DNA from: Nymphaea colorata | Taxonomy: Eukaryota > Streptophyta > Magnoliopsida > Nymphaeales > Nymphaeaceae | Direction: 5' to 3' | DNA: 64,000 bases | NCBI RefSeq assembly: GCF_008831285.2 | Contig: NC_045149.1 | Span: 17,127,035-17,191,034, forward strand | Shown: in pieces, positions 52,193 to 53,698 of the stretch | Layout: the number at the start of each line of letters is the position of its first letter | How positions within the stretch are numbered: position 1 is the stretch's first letter | Position numbers and translations under genes: made by a program | The notes under the pieces: model-generated | Seen by the model: the letters and a program-made list of their open reading frames with translations, nothing else | Databases searched by the model: none | What the model was told of the DNA's origin: nothing

Positions 52193-53488
52193 CTAACGTT
52201 CCGGATATTCTTGATATTTCGTGACAGCCTTGCTTCCTTCTGCGACCGCGTGCTTCCCTATCTCTCCCGGCAGCACTAACCTGACTGCTGCTTGGATCTC
52301 CCGCGAGGACAAAGTATGCTTGCCCGTATGCTTGGATAGCTTTGATGCCTCCTCAGCCAACCTCTCGAACATATCCGCTATAAAACCATTCAGCACTGTC
52401 ATGGCCACTGACGATATCCGGAGCTCAGGGTGCACTTGCTTCAATACCTTGAGAACATAGTTTTTGTACACTCCCGCTCCCAAGTCTTCAACTCTCCTTC
52501 TCCTCCTCCTCTTCCTTTTGGAGGGTTCCTGCTTGGGTTCTTTTTTTCCAAAATGGGCCTTCTCTTCTTTCTTGGGAGTCTCCTCGGCCGCCTTCGGCTT
52601 CTTTTGCCCCTCGATAGCTGCTGCTACCTCGTCCGCTGCTCTTTGCTTCCGTTTCTTAGCACCCACGTCCTCCTCCTGCTCCTCGGTGTCCTTTTTTTTT
52701 CCCTTCTGTGTCTCAACTGTAACTGGTGCTTCTTGCTTCTCGTCTTTTTCAAGCAACCCTTCTTCCTCCTCTTGAGACTCTTCTTCCTCTTGAATTTCAT
52801 CTTCCTCTTGAATTTCATCTAGCAACTTATCTGGTGCTCTTTCCTTTCTCTCTCTTCCAAAGCCCTCTTCTTCCTCCTCTCGAGTCTCTTCTAGCTCCTC
52901 ATCCGTTGCCACTGCCTTATTTTCTTTCTCAAGAGGATCTTCCTTTTTTTCTTGAGTCTCTTCCATCTCTTCCTCTGATGGTCTTGCTTTCTTTTCTCTT
53001 TCGACAGGCCCCGCCTTTTCCTCTTGAGTCTCTTCTAGCTCCTCATCTGGTGCTACTGCCTTCTTTTCTTTCTCAAGAAGCTCTTCCTCTTCCTCTTGAG
53101 TTTCTTCTAACTCCGCTTCTGGTACTCTTACCTTCCGTTCTTTTTCGACAGGCTCCTCCTCTCCCTCTTGAGTTTCTTCTAGCTCCTCTCCTGGTTCCTC
53201 TCGAGTCTCTTCAGTATTCTCATCTGGCACTTTAGCCTTTCTTTCTTTATCTCCAATAGGCCATGCCTCTTCTTCTCGAGTCTCCTCTACCACCTCCTGT
53301 TTTTCCTTCTCGCGCTCAACAAGAGAAGCTCCACCAGCCTGTGGCTTTCGTTCTTCTTTCTCTTGCTTTGGGAACGCATCTTGTTTCCCGTCCGGTCCAG
53401 TGACAGGCACCTGTCTCTGAGTTCTGGTAGAGATTGAGGTCGTCTTCTTAGTGTCAGCAGCAACATCGGTCACGCCCGGAGACAGGTT

Positions 53489-53519
<31 letters not shown>

Positions 53520-53698
53520 TCATCAACTTCCAAGAACTCGATAGGCGCTGAGTTGTTAGAAGCAGCCAACGACTCAATTGGAGCAGAGTCACCGTTGCAA
53601 TTGTTCCCAACAACGGCTGAAACCTTCACTGTCTCTTCCACAACCTTCCTGGTTCTCACCACCGCGCCTACCAGCTTGCGAGAAGGCCTAGGATCCAT
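52193..53698 (-). CDS. HTB8: Histone H2B variant, H2B.8 type, with long acidic repetitive N-terminus
   Basis: An intronless gene for 501 residues. Residues 403-501 form a full H2B histone fold: [55 protein letters not shown] and [12 protein letters not shown], including the AVTK lysine (Lys494) that is ubiquitinated in canonical H2B. The N-terminus ([20 protein letters not shown]) resembles the start of Arabidopsis H2B.8/HTB8, and the extended EYPER tail also fits that type. H2B.8 is known as a sperm/pollen and seed variant whose disordered N-terminus compacts chromatin. Here the disordered part is about 400 residues, against roughly 140 in Arabidopsis. It has poly-Ala (62-70), a doubled SAPIE motif, degenerate repeats of about 24 residues ([16 protein letters not shown], residues about 145-300), and a basic RKRRRRRR stretch just before the fold. 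The identification is strong for H2B and good for H2B.8. Confidence 0.93.

Follow-up and report, generated by a model that had tools for sequence, protein, structure and literature searches.

A long H2B.8-type histone with an acidic, repeat-bearing tail in the water lily Nymphaea colorata

Main finding

In the 64,000-nucleotide stretch of Nymphaea colorata DNA analysed here (the window), an uninterrupted frame of 501 codons runs from ATG to stop on the minus strand, with no intron needed. Judged from its sequence, the gene is an H2B.8/H2B.S histone, with a charged tail of 410 residues (76 K/R and 122 D/E) followed by an H2B fold of 91 residues. Our preferred reading, to which we give a probability of about 0.58, is that the long copy is a condensate-forming H2B.8/H2B.S, one of two duplicates, whose tail was lengthened partly by in-frame duplication of 72 bp. 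The features of the gene are listed below, with the basis of each in brackets.

52193..53698, minus: single-exon frame of an H2B.8/H2B.S-type histone, 501 aa, 56.4 kDa, pI 4.8 (frame reading, computed mass and pI)
53627..53647, minus: N-terminal family motif KVVEETV, residues 18-24 (match to the published KVVXETV; the C4 paralogue has it too)
53489..53515, minus: poly-Ala, residues 62-70, nine identical GCT codons (sequence)
52664..53323, minus: Glu-rich charged stretch, residues 126-345, with 37 K/R and 95 D/E, net -58 (composition)
52820..53179, minus: five contiguous 24-residue (72-bp) units, residues 174-293, with degenerate flanking units spanning 138-329 (repeat analysis)
52742..52834, minus: charged segment, residues 289-319, a helix in the model (single-sequence structure model)
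52493..52516, minus: basic linker RKRRRRRR, residues 395-402, ahead of the fold (sequence)
52193..52468, minus: histone fold with short C-terminal extension, residues 411-501 and stop (Pfam Histone, solved H2B chains, modest-confidence model helices)
52217..52219, minus: K494, counterpart of the canonical H2B ubiquitination lysine, which is Asn in Arabidopsis H2B.8 and the C4 paralogue (alignment)
53858..53866, minus: TCGACACGT, at -168 from the start codon, no more than a suggestive element of ABRE-like type (ACGTGKC); the C4 paralogue has TCGACACGT at -172 (shared-word search)

The frame and its parts

Residues 411-501 match Pfam Histone with an E-value of 1.4e-9 and give strong matches to solved H2B chains. 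A reading made earlier from the sequence alone had described a histone fold of 99 residues behind about 400 charged, low-complexity residues, together with a poly-Ala run. The fold itself, the tail and the poly-Ala are all found by our count, but the fold has 91 residues when counted from YKNYV. The linker which that reading called 'eight-base-pair-rich' is present, and the phrase has to be taken as eight basic residues.

A single-sequence structure model of the whole protein is of low confidence (mean pLDDT 49.6, pTM 0.20). Within it the helices of the fold lie where they are expected, in blocks of about 53-71 pLDDT, and 264 of the 410 tail residues fall in segments with pLDDT below 50. The highest blocks of the whole model (82-84) are residues 291-310, inside the modelled helix of the tail.

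The window contains other genes as well. A raffinose synthase/seed imbibition protein gene lies on the minus strand at 16553-20621 in at least three pieces (16553-17167, 17346-17825 and 19194-20621), and a tRNA-Cys (GCA) on the plus strand at 22747-22818. An open frame at 55156-56163, minus strand, matches Pfam PF12843 (QSregVF_b) weakly but above cut-off; the family name sounds bacterial for a plant gene. No long direct repeats of at least 150 bases, such as would mark a young element, were found at 20000-50000.

Family placement

H2B.S has been defined by phylogeny, by conserved substitutions in the fold, by a slightly longer C-terminus and by an expanded N-terminus carrying KVVXETV (Jiang et al., PMC7410336). 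Searched with the fold, the own genome yielded nine matches: the window gene itself, a gene on contig C4 (73% identity), six canonical H2Bs (60-63%) and a shorter H2B-like frame on contig C749 (56%). Taken from the start that gives a family-type N-terminus, the C4 frame has 216 aa.

G000:C4 23987587-23988237 (L013 288-938), minus: H2B.8 paralogue, 216 aa, pI 9.73 (own-genome fold search)

Two canonical H2B genes stand in tandem at G000:C12 17309213-17311058 (L015), about 130 kb from the long H2B.8. The frame on C749 (L021) has 77 aa from a GTG, with in-frame stops just upstream, and is 72% identical over 86 residues to canonical plant H2B; it is possibly decayed or provided with an upstream exon.

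For Arabidopsis H2B.8 we used a provisional sequence. Its N234, its R152 and its make-up over residues 27-119 fit PMC9668745 and PMC7410336; its Met residues, at 178 and 180, do not fit the published Met179. The fold tree was built from 13 rows (10 of them different), namely the window gene, the C4 gene, Arabidopsis H2B.8, the six canonical H2Bs of the own genome and four solved folds; the C749 fragment was excluded. With this one H2B.8 from outside the own genome, the window gene, the C4 gene and the provisional Arabidopsis H2B.8 group apart from canonical H2Bs with a support of 98/98, and a repeat with nine rows also gave 98/98. The sequence-only reading had proposed an H2B.8 type and had named a place among canonical H2Bs as the finding that would speak against it. 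The fold sits with H2B.8 instead, and the family motif is present.

The motif KVVEET(V/I) is found near the N-terminus of the long copy, the C4 copy and the provisional Arabidopsis H2B.8; in the long copy KVVEETV lies near the site of KVVEETI in the Arabidopsis protein. A longer core, KVVxETVxVxV, has been described (PMC7694166), and the long copy keeps it save for the last position, which is A. From a common starting point in the fold the long copy runs for 91 residues and the own canonical H2B for 88, which leaves the C-terminus of the long copy three residues longer. Among 86 fold positions, ten are common to the window gene, the C4 gene and the provisional Arabidopsis H2B.8 and distinct from the own canonical H2B, nine are common to the two own copies only, and four to the window gene and Arabidopsis only. 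At six further positions the window gene alone differs.

At five fold positions (K412, I440, S452, K460 and K494) the C4 gene agrees with Arabidopsis while the window gene has the canonical residue. These may represent reversion, parallel change elsewhere or retention, which three sequences do not tell apart. The Arg152 highlighted by Jiang et al. corresponds to K412, and the Met near 179 to G438 or I440. Asn234 of Arabidopsis H2B.8 replaces the ubiquitination lysine, a change reported as non-essential for function (PMC9668745). Since the long copy lacks both Arg152 and the Met near 179 and has the canonical K494, its nucleosome may differ.

The sister copy on C4

The C4 gene shares 66 of 86 fold residues with the long copy, and two neighbours of the histone stand there in the same order and orientation:

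50566..51792, plus: TAXi-family (xylanase-inhibitor-like) gene adjoining the histone, in the collinear block (family match, C4 comparison)
1309..2337, plus: POT-family (PTR2) transporter exon with open frame, in the collinear block (family match, C4 comparison)

The histone, TAXi and POT genes are collinear on C4, which speaks for duplication of the segment in its entirety, with no more than three genes seen in common. In the 200 kb of C4 that were compared, neither the raffinose synthase gene nor the PF12843 gene of the window has a match. The POT exon has two copies on C4, 72-74% identical to that of the window; these copies (L039 23908852 and L041 23928381) lie within 20 kb of each other with a Ks of about 1.0 between them, and the window has one.

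Ka/Ks between the window and C4 was calculated by the method of Nei and Gojobori. The fold gave 0.195/1.169 over 98 codons, an omega of 0.167 that averages both branches, and the N-terminus 0.231/0.814 over 30 codons. The POT exon gave 0.156/1.345 and 0.174/1.454 against the two C4 copies, and the TAXi pair, which is 38% identical, 0.632/2.369. The whole-genome duplication of N. colorata has been placed at a Ks peak of about 0.9, with 0.7-1.2 as the range used (PMC7015852); the methods differ, so our values agree with that peak only roughly, and TAXi is far off.

The window and C4 genes look like an old segmental or genome duplicate. What supports this pairing is the collinear block, not the fold tree: sisterhood of the two own copies has a support of 64/29, and the alternative joining C4 with Arabidopsis is not rejected (p-AU 0.43). 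Of the fold positions, nine link the two own copies; five with a canonical residue in the window gene, and the six at which the window gene alone differs, link C4 with Arabidopsis, and four link the window gene with Arabidopsis.

The tandem repeat

Tandem Repeats Finder reported 5.5 copies of 72 bp at 52796-53188; it also gave a period of higher order, at 144 bp, and an 18-bp unit present three times. At the protein level the five contiguous units have exactly 24 residues each. Flanking them are further units of 25, 24, 6 and 6 residues and a partial one of 11. Self-alignment of residues 125-345 at a shift of 24 gives 69 identities; no shift up to 99 in any of 500 shuffles gave more than 57. 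The five or six degenerate 24-residue repeats seen in the sequence-only reading are thus recovered. Its proposal that the tail grew by 72-bp tandem duplication holds for part of the extra length: the repeat-bearing stretch 138-329 (192 residues) makes up less than half of the 410-residue tail, and residues outside the repeats also add length.

Between 45 and 62 of 72 bases are identical across the ten pairs formed by the five contiguous units, which are spaced by exactly 72 bp. Pooled over these units pS (0.51) exceeds pN (0.23), which is consistent with constraint on the encoded pattern. The array occurs once in the own genome assembly, in a search that skips very common words.

We considered a single ancestral repeat unit in the C4 paralogue and do not put it forward. 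Two of seven units align to the C4 tail clearly above shuffles (7 and 2 of 300 reach the score), and the other five are matched by 45 to 162 of 300.

Size and charge

HTB8 orthologues have been given as about 19-32 kDa (PMC7694166). At 56.4 kDa the long H2B.8 is outside the ordinary size for the family, as the sequence-only reading had supposed; the sister in the same genome has 24.4 kDa, and the provisional Arabidopsis H2B.8 has 27.2 kDa and a pI of 8.42. The six canonical H2Bs of the own genome have only 59-64 residues before the fold.

The change in charge balance expected from an acidic tail is found as well. The tail of the long copy has a net charge of -46, compared to +5 in the C4 sister, -5 over 150 residues in the provisional Arabidopsis H2B.8, and +11 or +12 in the six canonical H2Bs. 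In blocks of 25 residues the long tail has an acidic run at about 126-325 and then a basic block ahead of the fold, and the charge segregation of the whole tail is greater than in all 300 shuffles. The acidic stretch alone is weakly patterned, its delta being reached by 8 of 300 shuffles and an SCD as low by 139 of 300. The provisional Arabidopsis tail carries two short internal duplications, unlike the 24-residue unit; growth by duplication is therefore not unique to the long copy, and it is scale and charge that stand out.

Upstream region and phosphorylation-like sites

RY, G-box, MYB-like, AGAAA and TATA elements are not clearly more frequent in the 1000 bp ahead of either copy than in the window on average. 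Aligned locally, the two upstream regions score no higher than chance (167 of 300 random cases reach the score). ACGTGKC occurs once upstream of each copy, compared to 0.17 per kb in the window. The word common to both regions at -168 and -172 is no more than a hint; among 2000 random 300-bp stretches, 64 have some 9-mer in common with the upstream region at a place within 15 bp.

Residues 126-345 contain six [S/T]Q sites where 0.7 are expected, a number reached in 0 of 2000 shuffles, though the repeats inflate it. In five of them, at residues 176-309, Glu follows the TQ or SQ, and the sixth is TQK at 330. The C4 sister tail has none and the provisional Arabidopsis tail one. CK2-like sites are not enriched in the acidic stretch (8, reached in 401 of 2000 shuffles).

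Proposed function and alternatives

Arabidopsis H2B.8 condenses sperm chromatin via its disordered region: arrays phase-separate at low or no salt and the region is required. In arrays a scrambled version performs equally well, and tobacco nuclei still condense when the region is scrambled or replaced by foreign (animal) ones of comparable negative charge (PMC9668745). The disordered region is kept across flowering plants with diverse sequence, according to the same paper.

By our preferred reading, the long copy would substitute for canonical H2B in the chromatin of compacting cells, i.e. sperm and/or maturing seed. Its fold would sit in the nucleosome and its basic linker would hold DNA. The long, presumably largely disordered and charge-blocked tail would bridge nucleosomes via basic histone tails and H1, and this bridging would yield condensates as with Arabidopsis H2B.8. 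Multiplying the acidic units would raise both valency and net negative charge, which should leave its condensates more salt-sensitive than the sister's and more in need of basic partners. As the provisional Arabidopsis tail is near neutral and that of the sister slightly positive, extrapolating condensation to a tail of -46 is risky.

A tail so much more negative than that of Arabidopsis makes loosening a serious, if unlikely, rival. Here the acidic tail opposes compaction: a polyanion tethered to the nucleosome would vie with DNA for H1 and for the basic tails of histones, and the long copy would loosen or fluidise chromatin compacted by its basic sister. The acidic tracts of histone chaperones offer an analogy for such a polyanion. 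The low pI of 4.8, set against 9.73 in the sister, and the gap in tail charge to the sister and to the own canonical H2Bs agree with such a role, as does K494, which is kept here and is Asn in the sister and in Arabidopsis H2B.8. However, the long copy has the basic linker and the family motif, and the animal regions that condense tobacco nuclei are of similar negative charge (PMC9668745).

A redundant duplicate with a drifting tail is rather improbable. Its fold would still enter nucleosomes, and the repeat expansion would be slippage that does no harm, since the C4 copy carries out the function. A normal-sized paralogue is indeed present on C4, H2B.S has been described as highly variable and under relaxed purifying selection (Jiang et al., PMC7410336), scrambled disordered regions function (PMC9668745), and the short duplications in the provisional Arabidopsis tail suggest that growth by duplication may be a habit of the family. 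Against drift speak the low omega of the fold versus C4, though it is averaged over both branches, and the excess of synonymous over amino-acid change among the repeat units.

The SQ/TQ cluster allows a further, quite doubtful proposal. The acidic repeat tail might be a polyanion tuned by ATM/ATR-type phosphorylation at these sites, dissolving or resetting condensed chromatin on DNA damage, e.g. at seed imbibition, with roles split between it and the basic sister after duplication.

Tandem repeats are a usual spot for assembly error, and the tail array belongs to this class, but an inflated or wrong repeat number in a really shorter tail is very improbable, given that the diverged units make mis-joined identical copies unlikely, that the array occurs once in the assembly (by the word-skipping search) and that residues outside the repeats lengthen the tail too.

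Significance

In one genome, two apparently old duplicates with a low omega between their folds form a natural pair that differs in tail length and charge: the tail of one has 122 residues and a net charge of +5, that of the other 410 residues and -46. H2B.8/H2B.S is reported from flowering plants except Amborella (PMC9668745, PMC7410336), and with Amborella reported to lack it, the water-lily pair places the family motif and a long tail near the base of flowering plants. A literature search on H2B.8 with Nymphaea and on acidic histones returned no paper on the long gene; Supplementary Table 1 of PMC9668745, which draws on Waterlily Pond, may list it.

Comparison with known systems

The closest comparison within the genome is the C4 paralogue, with the same family motif, much of the fold and two neighbours in common. 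It differs from the long copy in its short basic tail, in Asn at the ubiquitination site and in that no comparable repeat array was seen in its sequence.

Arabidopsis H2B.8/HTB8 (H2B.S) shares with the long copy an H2B fold with some of its non-canonical residues, KVVEETIKV near residue 16 (KVVEETVKV at 18 in the long copy), a long tail, a basic run before the fold and a slightly extended C-terminus. Unlike the long copy, the provisional sequence has 243 aa (27.2 kDa) and a disordered region of 93 residues in which E, P, V and T are frequent. Its tail has a net charge of -5, and it carries Arg152 and Asn234 at positions that are Lys in the long copy. The male-germline mgH2B.in of lily, compared by description only, is an angiosperm germline H2B that likewise has an N-terminal extension, with a modified HTB8-type motif, but is given as 193 aa (PMC7694166).

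The sperm H2Bs of sea urchins and hydrozoans (spH2B) also have N-terminal tails to which repeated motifs, as many as seven, add length, in protamine-free sperm (PMC9903204). Their SPKK repeats are short, basic and DNA-binding, in contrast to the acidic 24-residue repeats of the water lily, so the likeness is one of analogy and not of kinship.
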